Below, one piece after another: positions 4,018 through 62,351 of a stretch of 64,000 bases of DNA. The position numbers and the translations under genes were made by a program. The notes under the pieces are model-generated. The model saw only the letters and a program-made list of their open reading frames with translations, did no database searches and was not told the origin of the DNA. Where the stretch lies: assembly GCF_019649055.1 (NCBI RefSeq), contig NW_026570316.1:372001-436000 (forward strand). The letters run 5' to 3'. This DNA comes from Paramacrobiotus metropolitanus (lineage: Eukaryota; Tardigrada; Eutardigrada; Parachela; Macrobiotidae). Position 1 is the stretch's first letter. The number at the start of each line of letters is the position of its first letter.

Positions 4018-4024
4018 CGACGTT

Positions 4025-6406: not shown

Positions 6407-7529
6407 TCGGCTTCACTGTGGCCAGTCCGAAAACAGAAACTGCACTGGCGGTCTGGGGCTGGGCGACGGCGGGCTTGCCATGACCGGCATTCGTAAACTG
6501 AATGACCCGTGCGCTGACAGAACGAACACGATGCGCGAGACTGGTGGTACGGCGGGCGCCGCCGACAAGCTTCCGTTACATGACCTGTACGTTTACAAAA
6601 CGAACAATAACGGGAATCGCGGTTAAAAGTATGACGAAATTTATTCTGACAATAGTTGCGGTCGAAAAAACGATTTTCTACGTCCGGTATGTTAACTGAA
6701 TCACATTCCCTTGTTTCCGTATCGTTGATCTTGCGGCGCATAAGGCGCTGCAAATCAAATACGGTGTTGCAGTCGGCCAAAAACTCCTCCGGTGTCTTTG
6801 GTTTCATGGGCACAAGACGTTCAAGTAAATCGCCATGAAGTCCACGAATTAAATAATCAACCTTTTCGGAGTCGGACATTGTGGGTGAGACCGTACTACA
6901 CATATATAACACGTCATTGACGTAATCCGTCAATGATTCGTTTTCCCTAATCTTACGATTGCGCAACTGGCGCTTAACGTTATCGACAAAATCCGGCGGC
7001 CGGAAGTGGGTAAGCAGCGCGGCCTCTAAAAGGTTCCAGTTCTCAACTGTGAGGGTTCCGTTTCGCGTAGCTGTATATACCAGGTACGCGCGAATGCGTC
7101 GATATATTGAGGAAATTTTTTACTGCTTTGTCTCAGTCCAATCGTTCGCTAAGGCCGTAAGATTATAATTTTCCAGCCATGCGGCAACATTCTCGCCTGC
7201 TTTTCCACTGAAGCGCGGGATGTCGATGGTGGATCCGAGCCCTGTACGCTCCAGGGCGGCGGCCAGAGCATCCAGCTCGACCACGTTCGCGCACCGGTCC
7301 AACTGGCGGGACTCACGCCCGCTAGGCCGGTCCGCGCCAATCGGGTTTGCGGATCGACTGGAGAGCGGGGCGCAACTTCGGCCAGATCGACGGGTTTACT
7401 GAGCGCTGAGAATCCGGCGGTATGCCGTTCGTCACTAGCTGAACGTTTTGACATGGTGTAGCGTTTTAACGGACTGAGCGCTGAGAATCCGGCGGTATGC
7501 CGTTCGTCACTAGCTGAACGTTTTGACAT
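6256..7529 (-). pseudogene. gag: Gag with three CCHC zinc knuckles
   Basis: The capsid part contains IPRFSGKAGENVAAWLENY (about 7240-7160) and the capsid-like ESLTDYVNDVLYMC and KVDYLIRGLHGDL segments (6966-6820). Three consecutive CX2CX4HX4C zinc knuckles (CSFCKRTGHVTEAC, CSFCQRTGHSVYEC, CSFCFRTGHSEAEC) lie at about 6403-6606 and would bind element RNA. The frame is interrupted between 7120 and 6967. The first coding bases are duplicated in tandem, so the N-terminal peptide MSKRSASDERHTAGFSALS is present twice. Confidence 0.88.
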
Positions 7530-39908: not shown

Positions 39909-41611
39909 TCAATAGACATCCACACTGTTACCGCGGGGTGTGTTGTTTCCGGTATTCACTGGCAATGCAACCGGTGCGGGCAGTGAGGAATTCGCCACCT
40001 GTCGCTCATCCGGCTGCAGCCAGTATCTCGGTCGGATCTGGTTCAAGTGTCTGCGCCAGATGGCGCCTTCGACAGACACGTTCCCATAACCGGGTGCCTT
40101 CACGTCTGACCAGCCGGCCGCTGGTCCAGTCGACGGTTCGGTTGAGGCGGTAATCGCGAACCATTACCAAGTCGCCAGGCACGAAACTCTTCCGCTTGGT
40201 GCGCTTTTCAAAATTGTGCTGGCACCGTTGACGGTTTCTATCCGTATGTGTGAACATGACAGGAGACAACAGGTCGAGCTGAGTACGGAATTTTCTACCC
40301 AGTAACAACTCCGCTGGCGACTTTCCAGTTGTAGCATGCGGCGCGCCTCGGTATCTCCAGAGGAACTGCCGCAGTGCTTCGGACAGGTTCTTCCGGTCAG
40401 CCATGAGTTTTGCAACTCCGTCCTTGATGGTCTGGACATACCGCTCCGCCTGTCCATTCGATTGTGGGTGTTTCGGTGGTGTCCTGAGATGCTTTATCCC
40501 GTGTTCCGCACAGAAGTTTGCGAACTCCGGTGACGTAAACTGGGTGCCGTTGTCCGTAACGATTTCGGTACAAGCGCCGTACCAACTGAACAGGTTGCGC
40601 AAAGTTTCCAATACGCCATCGGATGTAGCGTGTTTCAATTGCGCCACTTCCGGCCATTTTGGCATGGCATCGACCACCAGCAGCAGCATCGTGCCGTGGT
40701 ATGGACCGGCAAAGTCAATGTGCAGCCTCATCCATGGGTTTTCGGGCACTTCCCACTGCGAGAGCGGTGCCTTGGCCGTTTCCTTAGCGCGTTCGGAGCA
40801 GATCCCGCACTCGCGAGACATCTGCTCGATGTCTTTATCCATCTGCGGCCACCAGCAATAGGCGCGTGCCTCGCCTTTCATCTTACCGGCTCCCATGTGC
40901 GCTTCATGCAGGTAGTCCAGTATCTGCCGACGCTGCTGGACCGGAATTACCGTACGCGATCCCCAACAGATGCAATTGTTGATCAGCACCAATTCATTCT
41001 CCAGCCGTTTGTAGGGACGAAACCGCTCATCAACCATGGCCGGCCATCCATGCAGGATGTAACCGTGGACCGTGGACAGATCCTGGTCATCGGCGGTTGC
41101 TTTGGCGATTCCTTCTGCTTTGACAGGTAAACGTGATACGTTGTCTCCGTGTACAGCATTCACCATCCTGTCCATCCCCAGCCCGCTTAATCCATCCAGC
41201 TCGGTCGAATGGAGTGGCAGGCGGCTCAGGCCGTCGGCATGTCCGAAATCCTCGGTGCGCCGATGCTCAATTAAGAACGAGTAGCTCATGAGCAGTAATG
41301 CCCATTGCTAGAGTCGGTTGGCAGTCACGACCAGAACTCCTTTGTTCCTTCCGAAGACACTCAGCAGCGGCTTGTGGTCCGTGCATAACGTGAATTCGCC
41401 ACCAGCTATATACTGGTGGAATTTGCGGCAGCCGAAAACCAGGGCGAGAGCCTCCTTCTCTATTTGCCTTCTTTCTTCTCGGCTCCGGTAAGTGTCCTTG
41501 ATGCATGCGCAATCGGCCGCTCGGTGCCGTCTGGGAACTGATGACACAGCACGGCGCCCACACCGTACTGCGAGGCGTCCGCTGACAGGACGAGAGGCAT
41601 TTCGGAATCAT
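39909..41611 (-). pseudogene. pol: RNase H end and integrase of the second Gypsy
   Basis: A 427-codon frame from 41289 to 40006 holds almost the whole integrase: a linker (GHADGLSRLPLHSTEL), the HHCC zinc-binding domain (LHEAHMGAGKMKGEARAYCW, CGICSERAK), the catalytic core with three acidic residues (HIDFAGPYHG; IVTDNGTQFTS; HPQSNGQAERYVQ), and a C-terminal segment ending HRLNRTVDW-like. The pol tail continues in another frame to 39909. Just upstream, 41547-41308 holds the end of RNase H (EALALVFGCRKFHQYI, TDHKPLLSVFG) in the same frame as the integrase, separated by a stop near 41300. This is one of the best-preserved integrases in the window. Confidence 0.88.
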
Positions 41612-42661
41612 AGTGCACCAAAAACGTTGCCCGCATTATTTCTTCCTTGATGGCCAGGAACTGTGACTCGCATTCTTTGGACCATGACCACTGCACTCCC
41701 GCTTTCAGCAGCTGGTGAAATGGACTGCATTTGGTCGAAAGGTAACGCACGTACCTGCCATAGTGGTTAACCAGGCCGAGAAATGCACGTAACTGACCCA
41801 CATTGGCCGGGCGGTTCATGTCGAAGAGCGCTTTCACTCGGTCGCGTGAGATATGCCGGCCTCGGCTGTCCATCACGAACCCGAGGTATTCTGCTGATTC
41901 CTGGAGGAACTGACACTTGGAGCGCTTCAGCCTGAGTCCGTGTTCTTTGAGGCGTTGTAGGACCCGCTCCAGGTTCCGGAGGTGCTCTTCATCAGTCGCT
42001 CCTGTGACGATGATATCATCCAGATAGATGGCGACGCCTTCGCACCCCTGGAGGATCCGTTCCATGATTTGTTGAAAGATGCTCGGGCCGCTGGCAACAC
42101 CAAACGGCAGGCGGTTCTACTGGAACAACCCCTTGTGGGTGTTGATCACCACCAGCGCCTTGCTTTCTTCGTCAAGACTTCAAGCTCCACTTGCAAAATG
42201 GCATCAGCCAGGTCGAGCGTGCTAAACTTCTGACCGCCGTTGAGCTTTGCAAACAGCTCGTCGGGCGTCTGAAGGTGATACTGTTGCACGTCCAGTGCAT
42301 CATAAAGCCCCGTGCTCAAATCCGCGCACGTCCGGATGTCCCCACCACGCTCGAGCGCTGCGACGATCGGTGCTGCCCACTCTGCATGCTCCACTGGTAT
42401 GAGAATCTCCTTCTCCACCAGTCGGTCAATGTCGCGTTCCCCGGCCACCCGGAAGGCGAATGGAACCGGTCGCGCCTTGCGGAATACCGGCGTGGCACCT
42501 GGCTTTAGGTGCAGAGGGGCTTTATAGTGCTTGCACTGGCCCAGTTCCTCGCGAAAGACAGCACTGTGCTTGGCAAGGATATGCTCCAGCTGGACGTTTC
42601 CCGAGACAGCGCACACCGCTGGGATCTGGAGGTCACGCAAACTCAGCTGACTTAAATTCAA
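41460..42661 (-). pseudogene. pol: Reverse transcriptase of the second Gypsy
   Basis: The frame 42661-42146 holds the RT start (HLKPGATPVFRKARPVPFAF; RTCADLSTGLYDALDV; FSTLDLADAILQVEL). The frame 42065-41460 contains the catalytic box AIYLDDIIVTG and the thumb, followed by the RNase H start (VLSADASQYGVGAVLCHQF). The break near 42110 falls between the palm blocks. Normal Gypsy RT reads LRLCVDLSTGLN and AYxQV/L; here the first block has an Ala before Asp, and the second AILQ. Confidence 0.87.
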
Positions 42662-42691
42662 CGCGTGTATCCAATCTCGTCCAAGTACATT

Positions 42692-43840
42692 TCAACCCGT
42701 TGCTACCACAATCGGCAGCGGCAGCGTCTTCCGCGTTCTCGCCTGGGTCACTTCCACCATCGCTGTGCCAATGACCTTTAAGGTATGGCCAGTGAAACTC
42801 TTCAGCGGATTGGTGTACGAGGATAATTTTGGAGAGCCGATCGATCTCCAAGTTTCCGAGGCGACAATGGTGACGCCGGCGCCAGTATCCAGCACTGGTG
42901 ACACCGGTACACCATTTATTTTCACCGGTACGTGAACGGCGCGCCCGCTGGTTGCATCGACAGAGAGCACGTCGAACTCCTCCTTCACCAAAAACGTTCC
43001 GCGCCCATCGCGTCCCTGTCGGCCGCTGGAGCTTTGTGCGCTCCGGCAGACCTGCGCACTATGGCCGCGCTTTTTGCACCTCCTGCACTCCGCATCTTTC
43101 GCCCAGCAGTCGCTTCGAGCTTGCTGCATGGATCCGCAGCCGTCACAGGCTACACCCTTGCCACCTTCTGCGCCAGAAGGCTTGCGTTCACCACCAAGGT
43201 CAGGGCCTCGTTGTCCGCCACGAGCGCCGTCACGCCTTCTGTAGCCATTACCCGCTGGTTTCGCTTCCCGCTTTCCAGGCGCGCCACATCGACAGTGGTT
43301 TGACCCTTTCTGGTGCTACGCCGGAACTCGTACTTCTCCGCAATATCCAGCGCTTCCTCCAACGTCGTACCATTAAGAAAGGTCGCCGACATGTTCTTTT
43401 CGAGAACATCGGCTGGAAAACCACACGGGAGGACTTTGCGGCGAAGCTTATTGGAATAATCCAACAGGGATTCACCCTGTTCTTGTTTGAGCTTAAAATA
43501 ATTGGCCCACTCGGTGGCAGCGTTGGTCTTCTTCACGAAGGCGTGTTCGAGTTTGTCTACAATTTGCGTTGTGGTGGAATCGTCCGGGTTCGCCGGCAAA
43601 CACATAGAGAAAAGCATTTCTCCAGCCTCGACGCCCAGGGAATCGAAGAGTAGACATTTCTGGTCTTCGCCGACCGTGATTTTGGGTAGTTTCACGTAAT
43701 TCCTATACTGGAATTGCCACCAGCGCCAGGTCATTTTGAAGGCTCAAATTTAATCAGGCCGGAGGCGCCCTTTTCTTTCGCTGTGCTCGCGGCGGCGGTG
43801 GTGTTGGTGGTTGAGGCGGGTACTGATGGCGTCATTTATA
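42692..43840 (-). pseudogene. gag: Gag and protease of the second Gypsy
   Basis: The capsid region (WRWWQFQYRNYVKLP, EWANYFKLKQEQGESLLDY) spans 43734-43150. In the next frame (43129-42692) a single zinc knuckle CRRCKKRGHSAQVC lies at about 43046-43087 and the protease motif SPVLDTGAGVTIVAS at about 42880. A one-base frame change separates gag from protease. An upstream AUG at about 43836 gives an Ala/Thr-rich N-terminus, with TTTATAAATG right at the start. Confidence 0.83.
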
Positions 43841-46247: not shown

Positions 46248-47245
46248 ATGTTGTTCGCGGTACTGCTGCTGCTGAATTCTGGAGTCCAGCCTTTAGTCCA
46301 TGGATCCGGTCATATCACGAGCTCTTTTGCACGATGGCCGTCAAATCCGGCGGCCGCAGTTAACGACAGTGGCATGTATTCTGAACCATTGGTAGAGATA
46401 CCGTATGACAGATATTTTGAGCACGGTAAGTGCCAAATCGCTGTTGCTAATCGGAACATTATACTGTTACCAAATTGTTCTTTTTTTATTTCTTGGCAGC
46501 TATTCCAGAGTTCAAAACATTTGTTGACGCCGCGACAACAATCAATCGAGCCACGAAAAACTGCATCCGTTTTGTCCCGACATACCCATCAACTGCTAAC
46601 AAACTTCGAATGACCGCAATCGACCCCGTTACTGGGTATGTGCATGAACTCTTAAACGCCATAATAACATTACAAAGTACCATTCAGATAACAAGAGGTT
46701 GTCGAAACTAATTACGTATCTTACGAAAACAATAATTTTTTATATTAATATTATTAGAGCTCTCTCTCCGGTTTGTCGAGGCCCTCTTGGTTACTTGGGT
46801 GGCATCCAGCATCTGGTGCTGGTAGGAACTTTTAGCAATCCGGGCGCCGGTCGTGCCGGTTGCCTGCAAGATCAGCGCGATGTTACCCGTCTATTACTCA
46901 ACGCGCTGGGCGTAGTCAGTGAATTTCAGCGTCCGGATCGCGATGTACCGAACAGTCCCCTGCGATTTCTGGCCAATTACGATGAAAAGCTTCTGCACGC
47001 AGTGCGAGCCGACGGAATGTTCCATAAAAAAGCTGCAGCGGAAACTGTGGCTGTTTATCCGGACACATTCGATATACTGTCCGTCACGATGGTGCATCCA
47101 GGGCGGTACGCCAAGTCCGCCAGTGACGCAGTTTGTCAGCTGGCCCCTTCTGGGAAAACTGTCGGCACAGTGACGAAGCTCAGCAAAGGAGACTGCGAAG
47201 TGCTCAGTTACATGTATCAGTGTAACATAACCTGCGAATCAACAG
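46248..47245 (+). CDS. Astacin-fold domain without zinc site (exons 1-3 of the RTK locus)
   Basis: This is the portion of the gene above that resembles peptidase family M12A. Beginning at [11 protein letters not shown] it follows the astacin layout: NCIRFVP corresponds to the CIRFVPRT strand, [16 protein letters not shown] to the SYVGRxGGxQxLSL segment, QRPDRD to the RPDRD that follows the active site, [15 protein letters not shown] to the SIMHYGxYAFS Met-turn, and [15 protein letters not shown] to the C-terminal LSxxDxxxINxLYxC. At the active site the family motif HExxHxxGxxHE reads [12 protein letters not shown] (about 46888-46923): the three histidines are R, N and S and the catalytic glutamate is L. 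Only the glycine and the last glutamate remain. The domain is therefore predicted to be catalytically dead and to act by binding. Confidence 0.75.
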
Positions 47246-50200
47246 GTACTTTACGCTGTGCCATCCAAATACTGTATGTACGAGTACCATAACAGTGATA
47301 ACACGACATCGAATATCGTTTTCGATGTTATGGGTGATACGGTAAAATTATACGGGAAAAATTCTATCTGTCACATCACATTAACTGTACAACGGAACAG
47401 CTATTAAGCCGTCGGTTTTTCTACCCAAAAATTGTCATTAATATGCTGTAATATATATAGCCATAACAAAGCTGATTCAAAGTAAAGCTGAAAATCCAGT
47501 ATTAGCTGGTCTGAGGATAAGCGAATTCTCGCGCGCTACCAGCCAGAGACTACTGACCATGAGTAAAAATACCTTGCGACATACATATCTGTAATTCCGC
47601 TGAATTATAGATTACGGAGCAGTTTACGGGGTACCGGGATTTGACACGGAGGTAATTTCGCAGAGTCACTTTTGCTGGCCTAACACAACAGGATTCGTTA
47701 GCGAAGCCGCTGCTGTTGGAGAAATTCAGGTAAGTAATGGATAATATCGATCGATGTGTCTATCTAATGCAACGTTCTGTTGTAACATTTAACTATAACG
47801 TTCATAGATCCTGATTAACGTTCTCTTTAACGTTCACAGTTTTGGTTTTTCCAACCGAATGCGCCTCCCGCACATATAAGTAATTCTCCCAGTGGCAGTC
47901 CTTTCCACAAGTTGTGTTTCTCATTCTGTTTTTTTGGCTATTGTCGAGATTTAGAACTAAAATGCTGTCGAAGGTACAGATTTTCCCTTCACGTGGATTT
48001 GCAGACACATTCTCTACGTATGTGGCTGTGCCACACTGAAATTATTTGCTCGTTCTTTGTCGTTGAATCAGGGCGGTCGGATAAATCAGGTCATGCGCAC
48101 GAATATTCCAAATGCGAAAGATCTGTTCAGTCAATGCATCTCCGAAAAGGACGACGATTCTGATTTTACAATAATAGAACTAGCCCAAAACCCAAAACCA
48201 TAATTTTTATTTTTCTACCGACATAAAATTTCTGACAAAGTTATCTGAAAGCTGAAACTTGTAAGGGTTTTAAACGTTTTAAAGTCTGCATTGTTGCCAA
48301 TGTTGTTCCCTTAATTGATAATTCCTACAAAAACTTCTCATGACGTTTGGAGTTCAAGAGTCACGCCGCAAAGAACTTTCTCCAAAATACGGAATCAACC
48401 CAACTTTTCTTAAACAGGCAAATTACACTGCGTGGCCGAATATGACAGTATATTATGAATTCACTCCCTCCATTGACGTTTTGGCAACCCCGGTGAATGG
48501 CACTCCGAATAGTGCCCAGCTGACGTTAACACGTCCTATCCGGACTGGCTTCCAAGCACTGGCGCGTCTCATTGCAAGAGACGACAATAAGTTACTTGCG
48601 GCCGATGACAACACCATCAACATTAACTGTTGGCTACAATTTCGCCTTACACCCAGCGCAGATGGAGTATCCGAACAGTTTTGTGGTGTGCCGGTCAAAA
48701 TCGGCACAACAGTGCCCGACCTACCCAACCCTTTCGTCAACAGAGAATGCCGGCGAACCGGAATTTACAACGTTGAAGTGCCCTGTGCATCTGAAACCGG
48801 CCCCATTCCAACCTCTTTTGACATCATTTCAATCGATTCGGTAAGGCCGACAAGTCGAGCCAGGTAGCAAAAATAAGAATTTTCTGAATCTGGTATGTGC
48901 TCTGGTCAGTTAGCAAGGTTACCAAACCTGGCCGGCGTTTCATGAAATTTCTGACTTCCACTCATCTCGGAATTTCGAGGAAGTATAAGGGTATGAAGAC
49001 CTTAAAGGAAGTATAGAGGTATAAGAGCTTAGTATAGTTAAAGGCCAGCAGGAAAGTTTGTATGATCAGTGTTAGTTACTTATCTTGAGAATGCCCTACC
49101 TATGACCTGCTAGTCACAGCGGTGGGCATCTATGGGTTATGAGAATGCTTAGCATTTCTTTTTCTGCGAAACAAGTAAATGCAAACGTGAGTTTAATATC
49201 CATACACCACGGTTGCAGGTTTGTGACCCCGATGGGACAGAATCCGAGTTTGGTGGGTTGCATGTAATTTTCTGAGGGTGCAAGTGATGCCGATGTGAGC
49301 CAAAAATCGATCTACGTTCCAGTTACGCAAACATTAGTGGCTACTGCGTTGGACCTTAATCCGGACACTTTCACTTTTCGATTGATATTCATCGACCCGA
49401 ACGCCACTTCTCCTATTGAGTTCGTATTCAAAGCGCATGTTAGCTGCGTTACGGGTAAATTATGGTAGTTACTGTAGGATACAGGGATTTTAACAGAGGT
49501 ATATGTTGTACAAGTGCTAGGATTTTTCTGGACGCTTTTCCGGAGGGATTACAGAATCCAGATACCAGACTATTACTCCACCACTGCGGTCAGTACCCCT
49601 TAGTTTTTTCAGATTTTGGTGATATGGATTCAGATGATGATAGGTAATTGGGCGTGGATTGTCGTGTCCTTTGTCCTGAGCATTCTGGGGATTTTGATCG
49701 CAGTGGCAATAGCTTGAACAAAGCGAGCGAAGACAGTAAAGACTTTACAGTGTCATTTACTATAAAGGGGCAATTACGACTAAACCTCGTAGTAAACCTT
49801 TGGTCTTAAGTATAGTCTTCACAGAATAACAGGCTGAATGGGAATAAACTAACGCTCAAAGAAATGCACAAGGAACTTGGCCCAGAATATGACCAACACC
49901 GGGTTAAAGACGGCATTTGAAGATCGGTACCCATAGTAATTAACTACGGGTATACGCTGGTAGATTTATACGTTGATTGTTAATTAACTTTTGCAGAACC
50001 AACCGTACTGGGACAAGGAGCTTATGGATTAGTTCTCAAAGCGATACTTCTTCAGCAACGTACAACCAGCCAGCCGTTACAGTCAACGGATGTGGCAGTG
50101 AAACGAGTGCTGCTCGGTTCGAAAGAAAACGAACGGCAACTTCTTCATGAGATTAAAATGTTGCACAAAGCCAACACACATCCCAATGTGATCGCTCTGT

Positions 50201-51213
50201 TGAGAATCACTACCGACGGTACAGAGCTTTAATATTCGAACGGACGTTGAAAGGTCACCTATTCGACTAGCTATTTTACAGGCGAGTTGCGGTTAATTAC
50301 TCAGCTGTGTGCTTACGGATCCCTAGATGTACATTTACGCAAAGAGCGAGAGATGCTAACCGATCAGAGAGCACCGATTGGCGCAAACAGGGAATGGGAA
50401 CCTATGGAATTTTTCGGTTTTATCAGACAGATCTGTAGTGGTATGCAGCATCTGGCCCTGCGGAATATTATTCACAGAGATTTAGCGGCTCGAAATATCC
50501 TTCTCGCTGAGAATAAAAATTTGAAAATCTCCGATTTTGGGGTGGCAAAGGATGGACCGCAGTTTAAAGAAACCAAGCCGCTAATTTGCTGTTTTTGCAC
50601 TGTATTGAGTTACAGTGTATCAAGCCTTACACCTATCTATAATCTGTACATTAATTCGAGACTGCTTTTAGATTCGTCTGCCGGTTAGATGGATGGCTTT
50701 GGAATCACTTTTGTCGGCCAAATTTAGCCTAGCTAGCGACGTATGGTCTTTTGGGGTGGTTATGTGGGAGATCTTCACTTGGTGCGAAGTCCCGTACCAG
50801 TCGTTGTTTTCGATGAAGACAAATGTTCCTGAATTGATTTCGCATCTACAAAATGGCGAACGCTTGCCTCAACCCTCCAGTTGTCCAGATCAGTTGTAAG
50901 CGCGAAACTGCATACTATGGCAGCATGTAACACTCCCGTTAATTCTTCGAACGTTCAGTGTGCTTTCGGTTCTTAAGTTTTATGTTTCTAACGACTATAT
51001 CAGCAGCGAACATAGCAAATTTTGTTTTGGTCAGCGACAGGCAGTAGCTTTAAATGAAAGGAACGCTAATTGTTTTGCAGATATTACCTGATGCTTGAAT
51101 GCTGGGAAACTGACCATACAAAAAGATGTTCTGTCCAAAGCCTTGCAGAACGGCTAATGGCACTTTCGGCTGCTGACAACGCGATACACCGTTACGTTGC
51201 TGTGGATACTTGA
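46248..51213 (+). CDS. Receptor tyrosine kinase with an astacin-like pseudo-protease ectodomain (14-exon model)
   Basis: Predicted exons: 46248-46425, 46500-46635, 46758-47245, 47611-47729, 48418-48840, 49219-49454, 49555-49592, 49613-49735, 49825-49926, 49997-50218, 50282-50601, 50672-50895, 51081-51213, plus optional 48072-48203. Introns are GT-AG and phases match from exon to exon. Order: signal peptide ([15 protein letters not shown]); astacin fold ([59 protein letters not shown]); second ectodomain ([10 protein letters not shown] onward); membrane span ([18 protein letters not shown]); kinase ([78 protein letters not shown]). Breaks: one extra T near 49265, one missing T near 49917, in-frame TGA at 49715. 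It may alternatively be two adjacent genes or a pseudogene. Confidence 0.65.
48072..48203 (+). CDS. Optional terminal exon giving a soluble astacin-like form
   Basis: After the AG at 48070-48071 a phase-0 frame of 43 codons ([20 protein letters not shown] onward, acidic [10 protein letters not shown]) runs to a TAA. The preceding exon ends in phase 0 at a perfect GTAAGT donor (47730). Inclusion yields a secreted protein of about 350 residues without membrane span or kinase. Skipping to the phase-0 acceptor at 48417 continues into the receptor. There is no donor after GTTCAG, so this exon can only be terminal unless the weak AG|GTCATG inside it is used. Confidence 0.4.
   Translation, partial: GGRINQVMRTNIPNAKDLFSQCISEKDDDSDFTIIELAQNPKP
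48418..49592 (+). CDS. Second ectodomain and stalk of the RTK locus
   Basis: Exons 48418-48840, 49219-49454 and 49555-49592. The first opens with a strong polypyrimidine acceptor (ACTTTTCTTAAACAG). [10 protein letters not shown] followed 50 residues later by NINCWLQF resembles the first strand and first helix-to-Cys section of astacin domains, so a second, more degraded astacin-like lobe is possible. The later part ([37 protein letters not shown]) looks like a beta-sandwich. Six or more Cys and N-glycosylation sites (NYT, NMT, NAT) fit an extracellular location. The stalk ([13 protein letters not shown]) is short. The frame is shifted by one base in the TTTT run near 49265. Confidence 0.5.
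49613..49735 (+). CDS. Membrane-span exon with in-frame TGA
   Basis: After TTTTTTCAG a 34-codon hydrophobic frame ends [11 protein letters not shown] and meets TGA at 49715. Reading past it gives TKRAKT, a basic stop-transfer stretch, then a GTAAAG donor in phase 0, the phase required by the next exon ([13 protein letters not shown]). So the TGA sits exactly between span and stop-transfer residues. It could be a real truncation, a sequence error, or avoided by the weak donor GCA|GTGGCA at 49703. Confidence 0.5.
49997..51213 (+). CDS. Tyrosine kinase domain of the RTK locus
   Basis: Four exons encode about 300 residues with every main kinase element: glycine loop (LGQGAYG), lysine in DVAVK, glutamate of helix C (LLHEIKML), catalytic loop HRDLAARN (the form found in many animal RTKs), DFG, the P+1 loop [17 protein letters not shown], and [10 protein letters not shown] in place of the usual CWxxDPxxRP. 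It ends in TGA at 51211-51213 directly after the fold. The activation loop as spliced here ([16 protein letters not shown]...) has no tyrosine, unlike most RTKs, but the intron start near 50602 is the least certain junction. All junction phases within the kinase agree. Confidence 0.8.
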
Positions 51214-51562
51214 TACACCGAAAGCGGGAAAGCACATTCGTATGGACATGCACTGGACTACGTAATTCGTTTGTGTCGCTGTTCTGTTTGAGTTTGAGTC
51301 TCAACCCAAATATCCCTTAAAGGCTTGAAATCCATAAGCGACTAGTGATCTTTAGTTAGGTTTCATTTCAATGACACAGTATGAATTTGTCTGCCTCTTT
51401 TGTTTCTAAGTGACCTATGCTGTATTATTGCAAAATAATGCAAGAACAACGTGAAGCTTATGGATTTTACACAAGCTGCGCGATATGGTATTTAGAAGGC
51501 AAAACAAATTTTCCTTCGTGATCCTTGTAAGTATGTGCTGCTATGCGACATAAGTAACTTAA

Positions 51563-51822
51563 GGAAAGTGGCCCGGTAGATGGTACCAAATTCATGTGCA
51601 TGCACGAAACTTTCCACTATCGCGCACTACCAAACACTTTTTTACTTTGTTCTATGACATTCTGAAGCCATATGATTTGTATGCATAGATGTAAAAACTA
51701 TTTGTGCGCGCATCATCCGGTTCGGGAGTTAAGGCTGGAAGCAAATTCCAAAAAGTTAAAAATTAATGATTCCAGTGTTGATAAGTCTCGTTATCAACCG
51801 ATCTTCTTTAAATTTGTATGGT
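51563..51822 (+). mobile_element. TTAA MITE, truncated left-half copy
   Basis: It starts after TTAA (51559-51562) with GGAAAGTGGCCCGGTA and follows the left arm of the 45175-45836 element (TCGCGCACTACCAAACACTTTTTT, CATCATCCGGTTCG, GATCTTCTTTAAATTTG), diverged but continuous. The right arm and second TTAA are missing. Confidence 0.75.
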
Positions 51823-51959
51823 TCTTAGGCCACTAAAAGGTTCGTGTGCAACCTTTTATACCTTTCCCGCTGACGTAGAAGGGGAGTCGAAATTGGCGAA
51901 TTTTTTATTACGTCATTTGGGAAGGCTCCCTTTTCTTATGATTTGTTTTCGTAAGTTGT

Positions 51960-52880
51960 ACAGTAATCATAGAGACTGATATAAACGTGTTGGTACGATG
52001 TCAACCTGGTAAAATCTACTCCACTAGTAAGTACTATACCGGGACTGTACATACATACTTAAAACCCAATGCTATGCTTCGATTGGTTGTACAGTTGCTA
52101 AGCAAAAAGCAGTTCCGCAATCACTGCAACATAATATGCTGCACTCAGATTGTTATCCATATTTGGGCGTTATAAATGCAGTGTTTTCGTGCAAATACCT
52201 ACTCTACAATATTTGTTATTATCGGTCTGCTTACACTATTTTCTGACTACCGTAGGAACTCGAATCGCCCGTATATCTACAGTAAATGCATCAGCAGTGC
52301 TCTATGTAAAAATTATTGTTTTGTATTGAATTGCTTATCCTTCAGGCTTTATGGTAAACTAATACGGATCTTTTAAACTAAACCACCACGAACAAAATGT
52401 TTTAGTTGTATCGTGATACACAATGCCATACTGAAGTGCTGTACACAGAATTATCTAAATTATACAGCTTTAACACAAAGATATCTTGTTTTTCCTCCTG
52501 GAGAACTGTGGTAGCCGTATGACAACAGAATCGCTGCCCAGGTAAATATGCACCGGAATGAAGGTAAGTGCATAAAGAAGGTCATAAGTGGACCAGAATA
52601 AGTACTAGTGAACTGTATCGTTATTGACCTTATCATTGCTGCACGGGTTCGCAAGACGGGCTGGTAATGCTTGCCTGTGGGGTGTGGTATCAGGAACTTT
52701 TGGTCGAAGGAGTGAAAATCCCGTTTATCCGCGGTGAAACCCTCTATAACGTCACGATAAAGTACTTTTTTTCAACCAGGCAAAACTTTCTCGGGCAATG
52801 CCGAGTGAGGGTCAAGTGTCAACCATTATTTTCAGTTTTCGCTTGTGCGCTGTGCCATGAGTCGCCACTGCCATCAATCA
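51960..52880 (+). repeat. Dispersed repeat, copy A
   Basis: It shares long collinear blocks with 63230-64000: GTGTCAACCTGGTA, CAGTTGCTAAGCAA, GTCGTGATA, GGTAGCC-ATGAC, GGTTCGC-AGACGGGCTGGTAATG and CCGCGGTGAAA. Divergence is substantial, with small indels. There are no terminal repeats and no coding capacity that I can support. Confidence 0.75.
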
Positions 52881-52996
52881 GATAGCATGCCTATGCCAAA
52901 TGAGCTTTAACTTTCCTGTGTCGGTGACAACATTCTTATGTGCACAGCCAGCACAGGGGGTCTTTCTCACCTTAGCCGAAAATATTTTATTTTAAT

Positions 52997-53186
52997 CAGT
53001 GGCGCGTCTAGGGGGGTGCCAGAGCAGCCATGGCCCCCCGTAACCTGGACGTCAAAAAAATTCGCAAGAGGGGGGTACATTGCGAATTTTTTTACGGCGG
53101 AGGTCGCCAAAAAAGCGAGAGAATACACCCCCCTTTGGTGTGAGTTCTCTGGCTCCCCCTCCGAAACCAGGCTAGATTCGCCACTG
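52997..53186. mobile_element. hAT-type MITE with 8-bp TSD
   Basis: It is flanked by ATTTTAAT at 52989-52996 and 53187-53194. The termini are CAGTGGCGCGTCTAG and the inverse CAGTGGCGAATCTAG. An 8-bp duplication and CAGTGGCG-type ends are typical of non-autonomous hAT elements. The interior is G/C-run rich and partly palindromic (190 bp in all). Confidence 0.9.
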
Positions 53187-53194
53187 ATTTTAAT

Positions 53195-56100
53195 GGTTCT
53201 AATCATTTTTTTTCTTGTGATTCCGAGTGAGAAAGCCCGTTGCTTGCTAGCTCCTGCGAATCGATCTCCCACGCCTGCTTTTGAGCATTTGTAGAAAGGT
53301 CAGATTTACTGTTAGCGGTGCACGACCTGTGCACTCCTACATAATCTTATGTTGTCCGAACTTGCATCCGGAACCGCTGCCAGGTGATCATCTGCCCTGC
53401 CGTAATATGAGAGTAATTTGAGAGCATGTGTAATTTGGCTGAATGGATCTACTGATCATCTCTTAAATTCGCGACGATACAGTCCTAATAGCACTGCCGT
53501 AGGCTAGTAACAAAATCCTACGCACTAGCTTTCGTTAACGCTACGGTGATCTTATCCCAGTGCGTCAGAAACGTGAACTAGAGGTTAGCGGTAAAAAGTC
53601 GAAAAATCGAAAAGGAATCCTAATTGTAAGTGCCAATGTCGACAATAGAACACGTGGTACATAACTGGCGGTGGGGTAACAGACTAACAGTAGGCGTCTC
53701 ACTCCTAGTAATAACGCGTTTCGGCTTTGGAGAATGCTTAGAATAATGGAAAGGATCAAAGCAGTCGAAAAAATAACCACCGAGTGGCAGACCAAAGCCT
53801 ATTGAATATACAAAGCCTGGAAGCAGGCATATAACACGGTCACGTCCTCAAGCCAACTCCGCTGATTTGAAGGAAGCTCAGACCAGCCTCCTCTAAAGCT
53901 AGATCAGGAAGTGATCCAGATACGGCGACCTAAACGGAATAGATCCCGTGGAGTGAGCAATGCGATATGTATTGCGAACTATGCGGAAACGCAAGACGTC
54001 GCACCGCTAATTGCTGACTTTTTAATATCGAAAAGTCTGGAGAACAGAAAATCAATACTGATCGGCGCAGCTCGATCGTAAAGCGTAGAGCCAAATCATC
54101 AGTGTGCAGCACGTGCTAAGCCGCGCCCACTAACAAAACGCAAGCCAATCAGAAGCGAGACACAACACAGACACGTAATCCATGTGGCGCAGCGTTGCGG
54201 ACGTGAACGCTAGTGAACCCCCGCTCACACTCCTTTGATAGTTGGTGAAAATTAATTCGTAAGTAATTCCTCGTGCAAAACAGAGGGATGTGCTTGCAGT
54301 ACCAGGTGTACAAACAATGTGGCGAAACGGATGTAGTTTTTGAAAAAAATTGTAACTAAACCAGGAAAGTAATACAGGATGTTTTGGCAAACGCCCTATT
54401 CATCCCATTCATCGCGCGATATTGTCTTCTTGAATTCGGGTAATGTGCGTTCACATTTTGATAAATGGATATTCGCTATGGAAATTCTTTAAAATTCATG
54501 GTTTGAAAAAGCATACGAGTACTTGATCAGCGCATAGAAAACTGGATAACGTTAGCTTTCAGGTGGCCACCGTGCAACATACCTGCGCATTTTGGACGGT
54601 TGAATTAATACGATTTTTTGAACGACTTTTTCAGCCGTTTCTCCGTAGACTCGTATGCTAACTCAGCGGAGCTCCGCTTTGCTGATAAGATCAGCTTCAA
54701 GGCTTTGTATATTCTACTGGCTTTGGGCAGACTTGGCCTGTAACGCCGGTTGGGTAGAGCTCTACTTGTGGAACAGTACAGGGGAGAATCAAACAAATTC
54801 TGTGATGTCCGAGGACTAATCAATTAAGTGCCCGGCACCCGGCAGTCTGTGGCAGCCGGTTTTGGCGAGGGAGGTGAAGGGAGAGAGGGCGCTTCCCGGC
54901 AATCGGCGTTTTGCCCGGATGCAGGAGATAACGTGTACAGAGGGTGATTCCGCCAAGTTGAGATAGCTTTTCGCAAATTTATTTTCCTCTCCTTTTCCCA
55001 GTTATTATCAAACAATCATTATATTTGAATGCTCTTTCTTTTAGTTAGCTGGTCAATTTGTTTTGACAGAGTTCAAACTTTTCTGAGAGTCATAGGATTT
55101 TGGAAACAAAAAGAGGGTCTGCGAAAAGCAGTGAACAAACTGCAAAAACTCGACGCACAGTTTTAATTAAAAATTCGTTTAGAAATTCCATTGTTTTAGA
55201 AACCTCTGGTTGAAAGTTGTACAGGATAGCCTGGTCCCCAACTCTTCAGTGCATATTCATCGCTGTCAGATGTTGAGCTACTGACATGGAGGTTTTATGG
55301 TGCGTACCGGGGGGAAGTTCTGATGGAGGTCTTCCCAGCTTTTGTTCTCTGGATACAGCTTCAGAGGGCGTTTTAAAAGAAGCGGCTTAAGCACATCGCA
55401 CGTAAGGAGAGTGACAATAGTTTTAGTGAAGAGAGGGGCCAAATGTATCGCGGTGGTACGGCGGTACTTAACTTCCGCCAGAGGCATCTCTTCTGAATTT
55501 ATTAGGTTTTTTCAAATTTTTGTTTTCCGAATTTTTTTAAAAGCTGAAATATTATCTGACTTCTCTCGAGGGGTTTATTGAGATAGCCTCGCGGTTCATT
55601 GTTTACGCTAATCGGCGGCAAATTTCAGATGCTTAGAAATTTGGTGAATTAATTATCACTGGTGTTCTAACTGGTGTTAAACTACTGAGCAGACTGTAAA
55701 TAGATACAATAGTCGCGGAGGTATGAAAACTATCAACTGGAAATTTAGTGGGAATTATTTCCACTGCTGTCTCAGTTTGGCGGAAATCTGTATATGTATG
55801 TGACGTAGTGTACAGTGCATTGAAACAGGTGTCTGGTTTACCGGCATTTGGCAATAGCCGAAAAACCGGAATACCGGATTGTGTTATTATAGTTATAGTG
55901 TACTGGAAGTACGAGTATCTTACTGAAAGCGGTAATACGCGTACAGTACACTGGATAAAGGTACAATTTAATCGAGTAGAATATTATTATTAAGGAAATG
56001 GCTGTTTAATACTGAATCAAGGATAGAAGGTAGCAGCAAAAGTTGTGTACTTTCTATTTTGCAGGGATTCTCTTTAATTCTCTTCAAGTCCAGATTAACA

Positions 56101-57742
56101 CAGCGCAAAGTAATGCAATCACCGAATAAAACTGCGTAGGAGTAAAATCACCGGACAGATTATCAAATCGATAAAGATCAATGTGACAATCATAAACAAA
56201 TCAAAAATAAAAATTGTAAACACCTTTGCTACACATGATTAGTACGCGTTCAGTAGTAACTTACCTTGTATCAACATTGTAAAATTTTTTTAATACTGCT
56301 CGTGTTGCACTACGAGAATCTGATGGCTGTATTTACCTTGCGGTTGCTGAGAAACTTTGTAAAACCGTTGTCTAAAATTCGAGTACTAAGCGCAATTAAT
56401 AGTGCAATACTCTGCATAATTAACTACGGTAGGATTATACGAATATGAGAATATTGTTCTTTTACAATAAACGGACAGCCAGAAGTTGAAATCTTAAATT
56501 CAGGTAAGTAATTTCAAAGTACCTATTGAGAAATTATTTTGTTTCGTTCACTGGACTTTTCAATTATAGTGTAGGACCGAATCTGATATCAGCTGTATAA
56601 CGTTCGTCTCCAAAATTCTTTTTTAAAAAAATATTAGGATTGATGATCTTTAATCGAGCATGTTTTAAGAGAAAATCTTTCAATTGTTGAATCATGTTTG
56701 AGAAGATTACAGCTCTGCAGTTTGCCGACTGGGCGGTACAGTCGAATGCTATCTGCTCTGAGTGCTCTCCGTTAACAATGTTTCCTTTTCCGTCATCTTT
56801 GGAAAATGGAGATGTGTATTTCAATGGCGACACTATGTGCAAAAATAAAACGTTAAATATTATTGTCCAACGGCAATTTACAGTGGTCAAATATACAGTA
56901 GCTCCTGTATCGACTGAAAACCGTGGGCCTGTCCGGCAACGATATGACCAAGGAAAAGCGCGCCCTGGACGTCGCTTGATCTCAAGCGGTTCAGTATTAT
57001 GATTAGAATGCTGTACACTCTGTAGTACCTTTAACTAGACCGCGTTCAGGCTTGTTGTATCTTCGTCTGCAGTTTCTTGTAAAAGTCTTCGTAAATTCAT
57101 TTTGTTATTCATACGTATTACTATACCAAAATATTATCCTTGTTTATAAAGAAGTACACAAAAAATAGTGTAATTAAAGATCATAGCAACCCGAACAAGA
57201 CTTTCAGAAAATTAGTGTTACTAATTTTTTAATAGTACACTAATCAGTGTGTATGTACGCGTACATCCTCAATTCAGCGCACTATGTGCAACATTAAGTA
57301 AGCATCATAACTTCATATACTACGCACAAGTCCAAATTGATTTTTGTAGCAAAATCCCAGGACTGACTCCCCCCAAAGAAATATAGTTATAACTAAACCA
57401 CTAGGGCTGGTTCCCCCGAATGTATCTGAGCAGCTAGACGTGTTTTGTTCCACAAGCAGACCTTTGCAGACTATAATATGTAAGTTTATTAATATATAAT
57501 TCCCAGACCAACTCAACAACAGCTGACAAACGGGCAAGCACAACTCGGAATCCAAACAACCCCGCTCATCAACCGTTGCTTTGCTCAAATCCGTAATCTC
57601 GTGAATAGTCGTAAACTCATAATTAATATTAAATATAATATTATTATTAATCATAACATGAGTCATACATCACACTCCCTCACACAAGGTTTAGAATCCG
57701 TTAAAATTTTGCGCGTTTTTCTTCGGAGCGTTCGCTTCCGTT
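53195..57742. other. No recognised gene
   Basis: Only short frames without domain motifs. The longest pair, 56564-56890 minus and 56694-57002 plus, overlap each other on opposite strands and neither is convincing. Confidence 0.45.
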
Positions 57743-58227
57743 TCAGTTTCCATATCTTCGTCGTGCTCTGGATCCTCGTGGGCATAGTGATATAAAAAGT
57801 GATAGAAGTGATATATTGATATTGTAGTGATAGAAGCAACAGCTGGGACTGGACCGGAGGCTGGAACAATTGTAGAAGACATCCGCCATTAGCGTTGTGT
57901 CTTCGGTAAACCAAGCGCCATCTTCGGCTTCGGCGTACTTGAAGCGGTCTCGAAATCGTTTGTCATATTCCATCCAGACTGAGAAAGGACGTTGAAGAGA
58001 CATTCCGCGAATAATCTCAACGTAAGAAAGAAAATGAGTGGCCAGATCATGATTATAAAATATTCGGTAGCGCGCAAGTAGAAGGAGCACTCCAGCCATG
58101 AGCAAAAACTGTCTATTTTTCGATCATGGCGAATTTCTGCCGTGACTGGCCAAACACGACCATCAAAATAAATTGTAAAAGCTGACCGATCAGATGAATT
58201 GTCCACATTACTATTATCAGAAAACAA
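57743..58227 (-). pseudogene. Transposon ORF relic with W-x2-YD-x2-FR motif
   Basis: The minus-strand frame 58105-57743 contains ATHFLSYVEIIRGMS and FSVWMEYDKRFRDRF, then DGAWFTEDTTLMADVF. A helical YxxxIRxxxxxxxxxxWxxYDxxFR signature followed by a W-x-D segment occurs in gag-like ORFs of some animal transposons, such as DIRS- or recombinase-associated elements. The assignment to an element class is tentative. The upstream part is in another frame. Confidence 0.35.
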
Positions 58228-58239
58228 AGGATGTGATGC

Positions 58240-61200
58240 GACGACTTGCGGCGACCTTTCAGTGGATGCACTGTTGCAGCATCGAGCGAAGGCAGGCGTA
58301 GTTTGAGAGGCGGAAGTCAGTAATACTTTTCTGCACTTCAGGAATAGTGAAATTTGTGGTTGAATACAGTAGATGGAGAAGGATTGACAATGTTGTTTTC
58401 ATCTTAGGACAGGAACAGTTTGTTTCAAATCTATCTCTGCTGGCTGTGGATTAATCGCTGCAGGGTGGCATTGGTGACCTTCGATGGTTTTCAAACAGTG
58501 CGTTTAACGGGCGCAATATTCTCAACCCGATTAGAATTTTTCGATTTTCGAGGCATTAGTACACTGTTGTTTAAGTATGTACGAAAGGATGTAGTAGCGC
58601 ACGTCCTCGTCTTAAAAATGCCACACAGACATGGCTTAGGACAAAGTCGCAACATCTCCACACGGTAGATGCAGCGCAGTGCACTGTACGACTGAGTTCA
58701 AAATATCCGTTTCGTACAAGTGCACTGCACCGCTTGCGTACAGAATGCTGGGTATGGGGTTATGCGACCATTTAGTCCTACATTGTACGTCGTTGCGCGT
58801 AGTGTAGCGAGTAGTCACTATACTACAGATACATCTGCACCATTAAAATGAAGTGTGGTAAAATTGACGGCAAAATATCAGTTCCTCTGCAACGTTTAAA
58901 ACGGTGTTTGACTTTTACCTTTCTCTTATCGTCGTTCTTCTTTTGCTGACATGCTTTTTCTATGTGTTCTTTATGGCCGAAGAGATTGCATCGCGTATCC
59001 CAGTACCAACACTCATCCTGTTTGTGGCGCCACTGGCCTCGTCACTTGCACCTGCCCTGGACGCTTCCTCTTATTGAGTCTCTTCCTCTTCGTCACTCCC
59101 TCCTTTCTTCGTCTCTTTACAAAAGCGCATGACGTTTCTCCTTGCCATATCCGGAAGTCCAACACAAATAATTTGCAGAGTAGGGGTATGCGTTAACGTT
59201 CAGTAAAGGCGTAACACGGATTCCCAGTTTGTCTCCTAATACTGCAGAGTTTTATGACAAGCACAGAGGCCGTCCCGCAAAGTAGGGAATACGTTCCTCA
59301 GAAAAGATCTCCATGAGCACGTCGGTAGTACGCTTGCTGAAAATGGTGGGAATACCATTCTGCAGAGCAAAATAGTCAATAAAATTTCACAACGTAGCAT
59401 GTAATCCACAAACTTATTTGAACATTTACCGATACTACGGCGCGCTAAGCAGTGGGGATCGGATATCAGTGGTACCATGTTGCAGTTGCAAAGTGTGTTC
59501 AGTGTGTTCTTGGTAATGGCTACTGTACTCTAGCCGATGCGCTACGATGCTTTTGAATTTTGATGCCTTATTATGTTGTACGAACACTTTGTAGTCTTCG
59601 CTTACAGTGTTAATACCCGTCCCTGAGACGGGCTTGTACTTCTACATGGAATTCGGAAATCCACAATAACTTGCCGCCTGGCTGGTGTTTTAAGTTTTGC
59701 CTGAAAACGGTGCTTAAATAGCACCGCGGAGTACACACTGTGTCAACGCAGGTAATCGTAGGTCCGGTACGTAATTTGCTTGAACCAATCACCTATCTCC
59801 TTTTTTCTTTTCTTTCACATATCTCTTTGCAGTTTTGTTGACCGTCACCTCTTTGGTACTATCCTTCCTTGTTTCGTTGACTCTTGCTGTATTCTTTATA
59901 GCAATTAGCAAGACGGAGGCGAGCGTTTTCTATTTACAGAGCATCAGAATTCTTCTGGTTGCTTCACTTCTTACTTCTGCCACTAGGACAACGCTTAATG
60001 CGCTAGGACAAATTTTCATAAGGACCGTACGTACTTGGGAAATCGCAAAGAACGGTCTTGTCCTGAAGCCGTGTCGCATAGTCAATCCAGCTTTCCATCT
60101 TCACCTCGGCGAAGGCTGAAGAACAACGCGTATTCCGTTATCTGGTTTTAGTTTGTTTGGCTAGTTGGGCAGCACACAATTACAATAAGCCTGCGCAGAT
60201 TTACACTAATTAAAATTATTAATTTTAGTTGGGTTGGTATTCGGTGCGTAAGGTAGGTGTCTGGCTGGTAAACGGTGTTTCGTGACCAGCTCTGCCAGGG
60301 TGAAATCGGAGGGCATTTTGCTTGCACACTGAGACAAGAAAGCAGCAGTGCTTTGGCGTCGATTAGTTGATCACCAATTTGAGCAATATACGGTTTTTAT
60401 CCACGTGCAGATCTGCCAAGGCAGTAATAGTTGTGGAATCAAAGCTTCAACGCTTTGTACTCAATCGTTTCTAGAATAGACGTCGATAATCGATCCTCTG
60501 GAGTCGCCATTGTCACACAATATAATTGTTTACTTCCCCCTTTTCCCACTTAAAGTTAGAAAAATGCTACACAATTCACGATTTGAAGACTGACTGCGAA
60601 ACTGATTCTTCCTGCGCTTCGGTAACGGTTGTTTTGTTGGTAATATAAAGGTTCGCATTTTCTGTTGAATTATACCAAACCAAAAAGAATCGTTCACATT
60701 CTTAAGTCGTAGGCGGTAAAAATAGACGTCTGTAATACCAAATTTTAGGGTAGTTATTTTTTTATTATACAGATTCTGTAAGCTGTGCGTTTTGTGAGAA
60801 AAAATATGCTGTAAAAAGTGGTGGGTTATGAATCTTGGAAATGTATTTATGTGTGAGTTGTCTGGCCAATTCGCATTCGTCCCTGATTTCCGAAGGCTAT
60901 TACGATTATAGTACCAATATCATCACAAAGTAAACAAGATTGGGATTTAATTCTATCATAATGAATTCGAATATACGGGGGCTGTCTCAATTGTTCCATC
61001 TCTTCGGTACTGGAAAACAGTTACTTTAATAGACGTTTAATTATACGGTAGGGATTAGGGAACCACTGGGGCGCACTATGCAGTTACGGACACATTAGAC
61101 AACTACAACGTGTAAATGTACGTACATATTAGCAAATAAGTTCTAGTATAACATAATGCATACAATGAGTTTTAATGGTACTCTTGACTGATAATCGGTT

Positions 61201-61500
61201 ATCCTTGCGACCGGCTTCTGCCCACACTTCAGCACCAAATGCATGTGCTTGTTCACGTCAGCGTTAGCATGCTTCATCCTTCCACAAAGGTCAACCAGTC
61301 CTGAAGAACGAAATGCCACTATTGCTGAAGTGATACTGTTCCCAGCTAAAATGATATGCTTGCTATTTTATTTTAAAACAGTGTGGTGTACGATGGTGGA
61401 GCGTGTAGGTCGTTACCTCGACAGAGTAAACCAAGCTGTTATTTTTCAAATACACACACGTAAACATCCTCATAAATTTTTAAAATAAACGTCTAGTTCA
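58240..61500. other. No recognised gene
   Basis: Short frames only. A hydrophobic one at 59835-60119 could contain one or two membrane spans but has no supporting splice or homology signal. Confidence 0.45.
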
Positions 61501-61938
61501 TCGGCAGTCATATCCAGTAGATGCTCTTCAGACTGCGTATAAAAACCGGCAAAACTACCGCCCATCTCCGGAAGGGCAGCCATGATTTCGTCCACTCTGG
61601 TGGGTACCTGGAAATCGTTTAGTCAGCCGTACCCTTCGGTTGGCACCATGGCGGGCGGTGGGGACGCAGGAGACATGGTGGGAACCACAGGCTGTGGTGG
61701 GCGCATGGCGGTGGCTGGTTTCAATGGCACGTCCACCCCCATTTTTACCGGTGTCCAGGTACGCTTCGGTGCCGGTAGTTCATCCTTCACAACGGCGTTG
61801 TCATCGATGGTGATGACATCGAAACGGCGCTACACTGGAGAGCGGGGACATTCGGCAGCAGTGACCAAGGCCTCTTGGAAATTACGCTGGCACCACTCGA
61901 CGTGGTGCTCTATGGTGAACATTTCCGTGGATAACTAG
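61500..61938 (-). pseudogene. Decayed host-like reading frame with two in-frame stops
   Basis: One minus-strand frame runs over about 145 codons from 61938 to about 61500. Its pieces are MFTIEHHVEWCQRNFQEAL; then TAG; FDVITIDDNAVVKDELPAP; a Pro-rich stretch; then TGA; VPTRVDEIMAALPEMGGSF and EEHLLDMTADELDVYF. Composition (an acidic amphipathic end, a Pro-rich middle, helix-like start) suggests a regulatory protein, not a transposon. I do not recognise the family. A frame that stays open except for two stop codons is the mark of a fairly young pseudogene or of base-call errors. Confidence 0.4.
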
Positions 61939-62066
61939 TCGGGGTGATAGAAAGTTTTTGCCTATTTAAATATTTATTGATTTGAGTTTTATTATGGTTG
62001 GTAAGAATTCAGAGCAGTACAAAATACCACGAATATCATTTATTTGTAATAAATGGATAAAAGTTC

Positions 62067-62351
62067 CTAATAAAGTACTAACGTATAGTTAAGATGTTGC
62101 TTTTTTGCACGGAAAACTTGAACGGCGACATCCGGTTGGTCAGTAACATTTTGCTTGTGCTTCAGTTTTTCCAGAATTTCTGGCCACTTTGGATTGCCGG
62201 CAACAGTAATAAAAAATGTGCCGTACCGTGCTGCAACAGTCAGAGCTTGAGCAGTTCGTTTTCGTTCTGACCGTTTTGGTCCCGAAAGGTTTTCAGGAAG
62301 ATCACGTGCTGCTGGAAACTGTAGAGCCATGTCCAGAGACATTTTCATCAA
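62067..62351 (-). pseudogene. Helitron Rep/helicase-like N-terminal fragment
   Basis: The minus-strand frame contains ARYGTFFITVAGNPKWPEIL followed by DQPDVAVQVFRAKKQHL. This matches the Helitron helicase-like (Rep-side) region, where the family reads GxPDLFITFTCNPxWPEI and DRPDLVARVFxxK. It is about 95 codons, with no HUH catalytic motif in view. It is a truncated relic. Confidence 0.75.

Follow-up and report, generated by a model that had tools for sequence, protein, structure and literature searches.

Does a tardigrade genome encode a receptor tyrosine kinase (RTK) whose extracellular head is a dead secreted protease? This question is raised by a locus of Paramacrobiotus metropolitanus (genome of 169.8 Mb in 533 contigs) located in the window, i.e., the whole stretch of 64,000 nucleotides that was analyzed (C96:372001-436000). 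The locus is likely to be an RTK gene in which a secreted pseudo-astacin, composed of a dead M12A domain and two unclassified domains, was joined by a phase-1 intron to a membrane span and a kinase, and of which the window holds a decayed copy. The domain order, the open frame of a second copy on contig C446, the lesions of the window copy, the loss of the zinc motif, the phase-1 joint and the kinase clade are read directly from the sequence.

Exon structure and lesions of the window copy

The NCBI protein at the window locus, LOC129596832 isoform X2 (P0002), comprises 504 aa, terminates after the third ectodomain (ecto3) and has no kinase. The following exons were delimited using splice sites, P0002 and related genes on contigs C446 and C102.

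46248..46425, plus strand: exon 1, hydrophobic N-terminus and start of the ectodomain (ATG at 46248, donor GT at 46426; within P0002)
46500..46635, plus strand: exon 2, N-terminal part of the astacin-like domain (acceptor and donor present; residues 60-105 of P0002)
46758..47245, plus strand: exon 3, pseudo-astacin domain with replaced zinc motif (Pfam E = 4.2e-4 alone; 86% identity with C446)
47611..47729, plus strand: exon 4, linker, phase 0 to exon 5 (splice sites, C446, P0002)
48418..48840, plus strand: exon 5, second ectodomain, ecto2 (72% identity to C446, 45% to C102)
49219..49454, plus strand: ecto3 exon, frameshifted, stop at 49273-49275 (comparison with C446)
49644..49717, plus strand: membrane-span exon, terminating in TGA at 49715-49717
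49825..49926, plus strand: juxtamembrane exon, frameshifted, stop at 49918-49920
49997..50218, plus strand: kinase exon 1 with glycine loop and VAVK (dN/dS 0.14)
50282..50580, plus strand: kinase exon 2, no donor GT at 50581
50672..50895, plus strand: kinase exon 3, C-lobe, almost the same as in C446 (dS 0.043)
51081..51213, plus strand: kinase exon 4 with stop codon (dS 0)

The N-terminus of exon 1 is signal-peptide-like as judged by eye. The acceptors 47840 and 48072, from which the frame runs into a stop at 48201, were dropped, as exon 4 joins 48418 in phase 0 in agreement with C446 and P0002. For ecto2, the Pfam search gave zero matches and the domain belongs to no known family.

Compared to C446, the window copy carries four separate lesions, of which two are substitutions: a frameshift in ecto3 that sits in a T run and is skipped in P0002 by a 67-bp intron, a TGA directly 3′ of the span, a frameshift in the juxtamembrane exon and the missing GT of kinase exon 2. 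The stop after the span looks derived, since the related kinases P0001, P0013, and P0037 have none at this place. A donor scan by frame and phase found no GT-AG path from the span to the kinase of the window copy. The sole in-frame GT donors are 49703 past the first ten span residues and 49903 for the juxtamembrane frame, both in phase 0; the kinase acceptor 49997 requires phase 1, for which the matching donors are GC only (49880 and 49913).

Head, span and kinase are thus not contained in one open frame here. The exon chain of the original prediction was recovered with its exons, order, strand and most of its phases, and chance was excluded, but the phases leading to the kinase are broken in the window. 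Judged from these lesions, the window locus is a decayed copy of a tardigrade receptor gene that kept its ectodomain but no longer has a bridge to the kinase; its product would be at most a secreted or membrane-stub head.

An unbroken copy on contig C446

The astacin-like exon, ecto2 and the kinase are repeated in the same order and on the same strand on C446, with 72-93% amino-acid identity to the window (75-93% in the kinase stretches). A splice model spanning ten exons keeps an open frame of 795 residues between the astacin exon and the stop of the kinase. It was built before the protein database search and is identical to the NCBI model LOC129602409 (P0001, 795 aa, partial). The contig starts inside the gene, with the signal peptide and the first two exons lying outside of it.

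One membrane span (residues 436-454) is located in frame between the head and the kinase of P0001. The kinase domain is unambiguous, matching PF07714 with E = 3.7e-71, and carries the catalytic motifs, though its activation loop has no Tyr. An astacin-like pseudo-protease on an RTK, as originally proposed for the window, is therefore present in the genome by way of C446 and P0001, but the window copy is interrupted and P0002 lacks the kinase.

On C446, the intron between ecto2 and ecto3 contains an extra stretch of 7.4 kb carrying a retroelement; the distance in the window is 378 bp. Because of this short distance, and because ecto2 and ecto3 are part of a single protein on C102 (P0003), ecto3 was assigned to the head. 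It shares one frame with the span and the kinase on C446, and the exon comparison with the window revealed no further head exon between ecto3 and the span. In the 7.4-kb insert (L037:2600-10000), antisense frames resembling the reverse transcriptase and the tyrosine recombinase of a retroelement were seen by eye.

Between the window and C446, dS amounts to 0.31-0.55 in most exons and to 0.80 in one 15-codon piece; in kinase exon 2, 31 of 294 bases differ. Kinase exons 3 and 4 (dS 0.043 and 0) and the intron that separates them are nearly the same in the two copies, as after gene conversion or with a recent common ancestor of that part. The dN/dS values, to which the decay of the window copy contributes, are 0.51 for ecto2, 0.53 for the longer and 0.24 for the 15-codon part of ecto3, 0.24 for the astacin exon, 0.23 for exon 4, 0.22 for the juxtamembrane exon and 0.14 for kinase exon 1. 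Overall, window positions 46679-62193 and C446 positions 1-21491 are divergent collinear copies, the identity climbing to 95% at the right end.

Astacin ancestry of the head

The assignment to the astacins (Pfam PF01400) stands on relatives of the window gene. P0003 on C102 exceeds the Pfam cut-off (E = 3e-7, 30.8 bits, profile positions 6-189 of 189), but exon 3 of the window alone (E = 4.2e-4, 20.5 bits) and P0002 (E = 2.5e-4, 21.2 bits, match starting at residue 79) stay below the cut-off of 22.5 bits. For P0001, which is devoid of the N-terminal exons, E = 0.066 was obtained. An hhalign comparison of three pseudo-astacin heads with the astacin part of P0070, a protein described below, gave 97.2%, compared to 5.3 for the best of 100 shuffles and 0.2 for the reversed sequence. 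Pfam with P0003 and hhalign hence both point to homology with the astacin peptidases (M12A), as predicted from the sequence of the window.

Sequence search against the PDB retrieved 3lqb_A at E = 0.0012 with P0003 and at E = 0.01 with the profile, and the NCBIfam search returned only matches far below cut-off. No astacin relatives were found in the scan of bacterial and archaeal genomes. AlphaFold, run for P0002 with an alignment of 3 rows, resulted in a mean pLDDT of 34.7 with the astacin part below 40; as the head was left at low pLDDT, its astacin fold rests on homology.

The HExxHxxGxxH zinc motif of astacins is lost in the window head: the three His are missing, as is the catalytic Glu, and RPDRD is retained. 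For the family, 17 pseudo-astacin loci including the window were examined, drawn from 20 excised ones. HExxH was present in none of the 16 loci that show the zinc region, two of which represent one gene.

Three tandem pseudo-astacin units are located at C102:124555-134735. In units 1 and 3 a stop immediately follows ecto3, and the 40 kb examined there yielded no kinase. Units of this kind are the likely type of ancestor of the head. Because they lack a kinase over 40 kb and because units 1 and 3 end after ecto3, the death of the enzyme probably preceded the fusion to the kinase.

The joint at the span and the relations of the kinases

The intron in front of the span exon is in phase 1 in all four genes examined (C446, C80, C96b, and C139 plus). 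A related RTK, P0037 (LOC129596792, C96:443188-446862), lies beyond the window and starts some 20 kb downstream from the locus described above. Its head matches CUB with 17.9 bits, below the cut-off of 21.4, and the NCBI isoform X3 contains the N-terminal kinase part only. Upstream of P0013 on C80, peptides similar to the CUB-like head of P0037 were recognized by eye. Since these nearest kinases bear other heads, the span exon appears to be the point at which the head was swapped.

In a tree of 20 kinase rows, the eight tardigrade rows form one clade (95/94), in which P0001 pairs with P0013 (100/100) and P0070 with the weakly GH16-headed P0120 (95/93). A single clade of P0001, P0013, and P0070 was rejected (p-AU 0.0127); this grouping was selected with knowledge of the first tree. 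Both pairings were also obtained in an earlier tree of 29 rows (100/97 and 100/99), in which the eight tardigrade rows are not united. In both trees the tardigrade kinases fall into none of the groups FGFR, Torso, Ret, and Cad96Ca.

A second astacin-headed RTK family with an intact zinc site

P0070, annotated by NCBI as 'PDGFR beta-like' (675 aa), matches Astacin with E = 7.3e-41 and the kinase with E = 1.4e-74. Its location is:

C139:306184-306907, plus strand: astacin exons of P0070, with the span at about 307572 and the region extending to 308000

The HExxHxxGxxH motif of P0070 is intact (HELMHTLGFYHE). The same intact motif occurs in a gene on C111 (L056, C111:251801-256300), in which in-frame GT-AG introns can join astacin, span, and kinase up to the stop. 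Both models are devoid of a signal peptide and a propeptide, the NCBI model of P0070 beginning within the astacin domain. Damaged copies are located on the minus strand of C139, with a frame change in the astacin exon, and on C118, with HALMH and an in-frame stop. All four carry a Thr at what we take to be the position of the Met-turn Met. AlphaFold modeled the span and the kinase of P0070 (26 rows), with pLDDT 25-37 in the astacin part. The P0070/C111 type could possibly unite protease and kinase within a single receptor.

Among 101 astacin rows, two have a kinase within 12 kb downstream, namely C139 minus strand and C63 at 9 kb; the astacin-kinase pairs of C111 and C118 came from a separate search outside this count.

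Alternative explanations for the locus

It could be argued that two neighboring genes, a secreted pseudo-astacin and an RTK with a head of its own, were joined only by gene prediction, as C102 units 1 and 3 stop right after ecto3 with no kinase in 40 kb, the NCBI model of the window lacks the kinase and 7.4 kb separate ecto2 from ecto3 on C446. This is quite unlikely in view of the ten C446 exons in one open frame that the NCBI model shares, the lack of any other head exon noticed between ecto3 and span, the same order in two collinear copies and the joining of astacin and kinase in P0070 and C111 as well. Two separate genes, which the original prediction had named as its refutation, were not seen on C446, to the extent that the sequence allows a judgment. 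A full receptor might also still be made from the window copy, either by GC-AG splicing, for which the GC donors 49880 and 49913 fit in phase, or because the lesions are assembly errors, in keeping with an ecto3 frameshift within a T run and otherwise open kinase coding stretches. Four separate lesions including two substitutions, and an NCBI model that ends before the kinase, make this highly improbable.

A kept and useful secreted decoy head instead of a dying gene would agree with the 504-aa product modeled by NCBI, with the dN/dS of 0.24 in the astacin exon and with the secreted-type relatives on C102. The low dN/dS may, however, stem from the other copy or from the time before the decay, and ecto3 is reduced and dependent on a makeshift intron, so that a decoy appears rather unlikely. 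Finally, C446 and the window may represent two divergent haplotypes of one locus instead of duplicates, in which case the receptor would be polymorphic for function. Of the 13 aligned blocks of C446, 11 lie in order on window 46679-62193 with 74-97% identity and reach both contig ends, the other two being short matches elsewhere, and a 1.2-kb flank probe detected C446 (93%) as the only close second copy besides C96. In contrast, a dS of 0.31-0.55 over most exons is high for alleles and NCBI lists two loci, and we judge the haplotype explanation to fall slightly short of probable.

GH16 and GH45 heads on tardigrade kinases

Heads derived from other hydrolases were identified on related kinases. 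P0047, P0069, and P0073 have GH16 heads above the Pfam cut-off, and P0120 has a weak one (17.2 bits vs. 22). E-x-D-x-x-E, which we take to be the catalytic pattern of GH16, is absent in all four heads. Among the 40 GH16 matches in the genome, 27 have a kinase match on the same strand within 8 kb downstream, 24 of these within 2.2 kb, corresponding to at least 22 distinct kinase places in an incomplete kinase list. Two examples of GH16 matches are:

C53:240098-238051, minus strand: GH16 match
C154:40814-42824: GH16 match

In Hypsibius exemplaris, P0078, labeled 'Endoglucanase type K', carries a GH45 head (206 bits) on a tyrosine kinase. It keeps TRYWDCC and shows NFNL where we would expect HFDL with the catalytic acid.

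These matches suggest a large and apparently undescribed set of pseudo-GH16-headed RTKs. As the two astacin-headed kinase lineages do not form one clade and GH16 heads are common, it seems that secreted hydrolases supplied the fold of tardigrade RTK heads on more than one occasion. Tentatively, a tardigrade RTK system may be envisaged in which captured secreted-hydrolase heads (dead and zinc-keeping astacins, dead GH16, GH45) are swapped via the phase-1 intron.

If so, the GH16 class with its at least 22 kinase places would serve as a system for recognition at the cell surface in animals for which an absence of GNBP1/3 and PGRP-SA/SD has been reported. In a study on the immunity of tardigrades (PMC7056985), homologues of these proteins were not detected. 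The GH16-headed receptors are candidates for a GNBP/PGRP-like role.

Comparison with known receptors and putative function

The heads of RTKs usually consist of adhesion-type modules (Ig, FN3, LRR, cadherin). The pseudo-astacin head is homologous over the domain to the astacin metalloproteases (M12A, PF01400), but unlike these it lost the zinc His and the catalytic Glu and is fused to a span and a tyrosine kinase. With RTKs like FGFR, Torso, Ret, Cad96Ca, and others, the receptor shares the single span and a kinase with DFG, whereas its C446-type kinase lies outside these groups in the 20-row tree and its head is different. The tardigrade GH16- and GH45-headed kinases equally combine a hydrolase-derived head, a span and a related kinase, but the head has a glycosidase fold and the kinase lineage is other than that of the window gene.

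Enzyme-derived receptor heads have precedents. GH18-headed plant receptor kinases such as CHRK1 have an enzyme-derived extracellular head too, but on a plant kinase and with a chitinase fold, the head being predicted to be enzymatically active according to a review (PMC5485988). RPTP gamma and zeta (PMC11215419) carry a carbonic-anhydrase-like extracellular domain on a transmembrane signaling protein, which differs in being a phosphatase instead of a kinase and in having another fold. Head shuffling in RTKs is described in a paper on the holozoan tyrosine kinome, in whose main text the words tardigrade, protease, and hydrolase are absent (PMC8662651).

An astacin head on an RTK is apparently undescribed. 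In searches of the open-access literature, no paper on astacin- or GH16-headed RTKs was found, which agrees with the original statement that no RTK family built on the astacin fold is known. Likewise, P0047, P0069, P0073, and P0078 are represented by NCBI models only and no paper on them was found.

The pseudo-astacin head of the C446 receptor would most likely bind a ligand, perhaps a peptide or a protease-inhibitor-like molecule. Ligand-bound heads would then bring receptors together, and the paired kinases would cross-phosphorylate in trans and thereby signal. It is conceivable that such a receptor senses microbes or the environment: fast ectodomains, tandem copies and decayed members appear to resemble receptors facing a changing outside world.

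Enzyme folds became RTK heads, and the astacin fold is found on two lineages of kinases, one of which retains the zinc site while the other has lost it; this opens the transition from an enzyme to a receptor to testing. As candidate sensors, the genes may help to explain how tardigrades perceive microbes, food or cuticle, and labels like 'PDGFR beta-like', 'FGFR-like', 'Kit-like', and 'endoglucanase' are misleading for them.

Apart from the receptor gene, open frames resembling Gypsy-type retroelements were noticed by eye on the minus strand of the window at 1847-7119 and 40006-43743.
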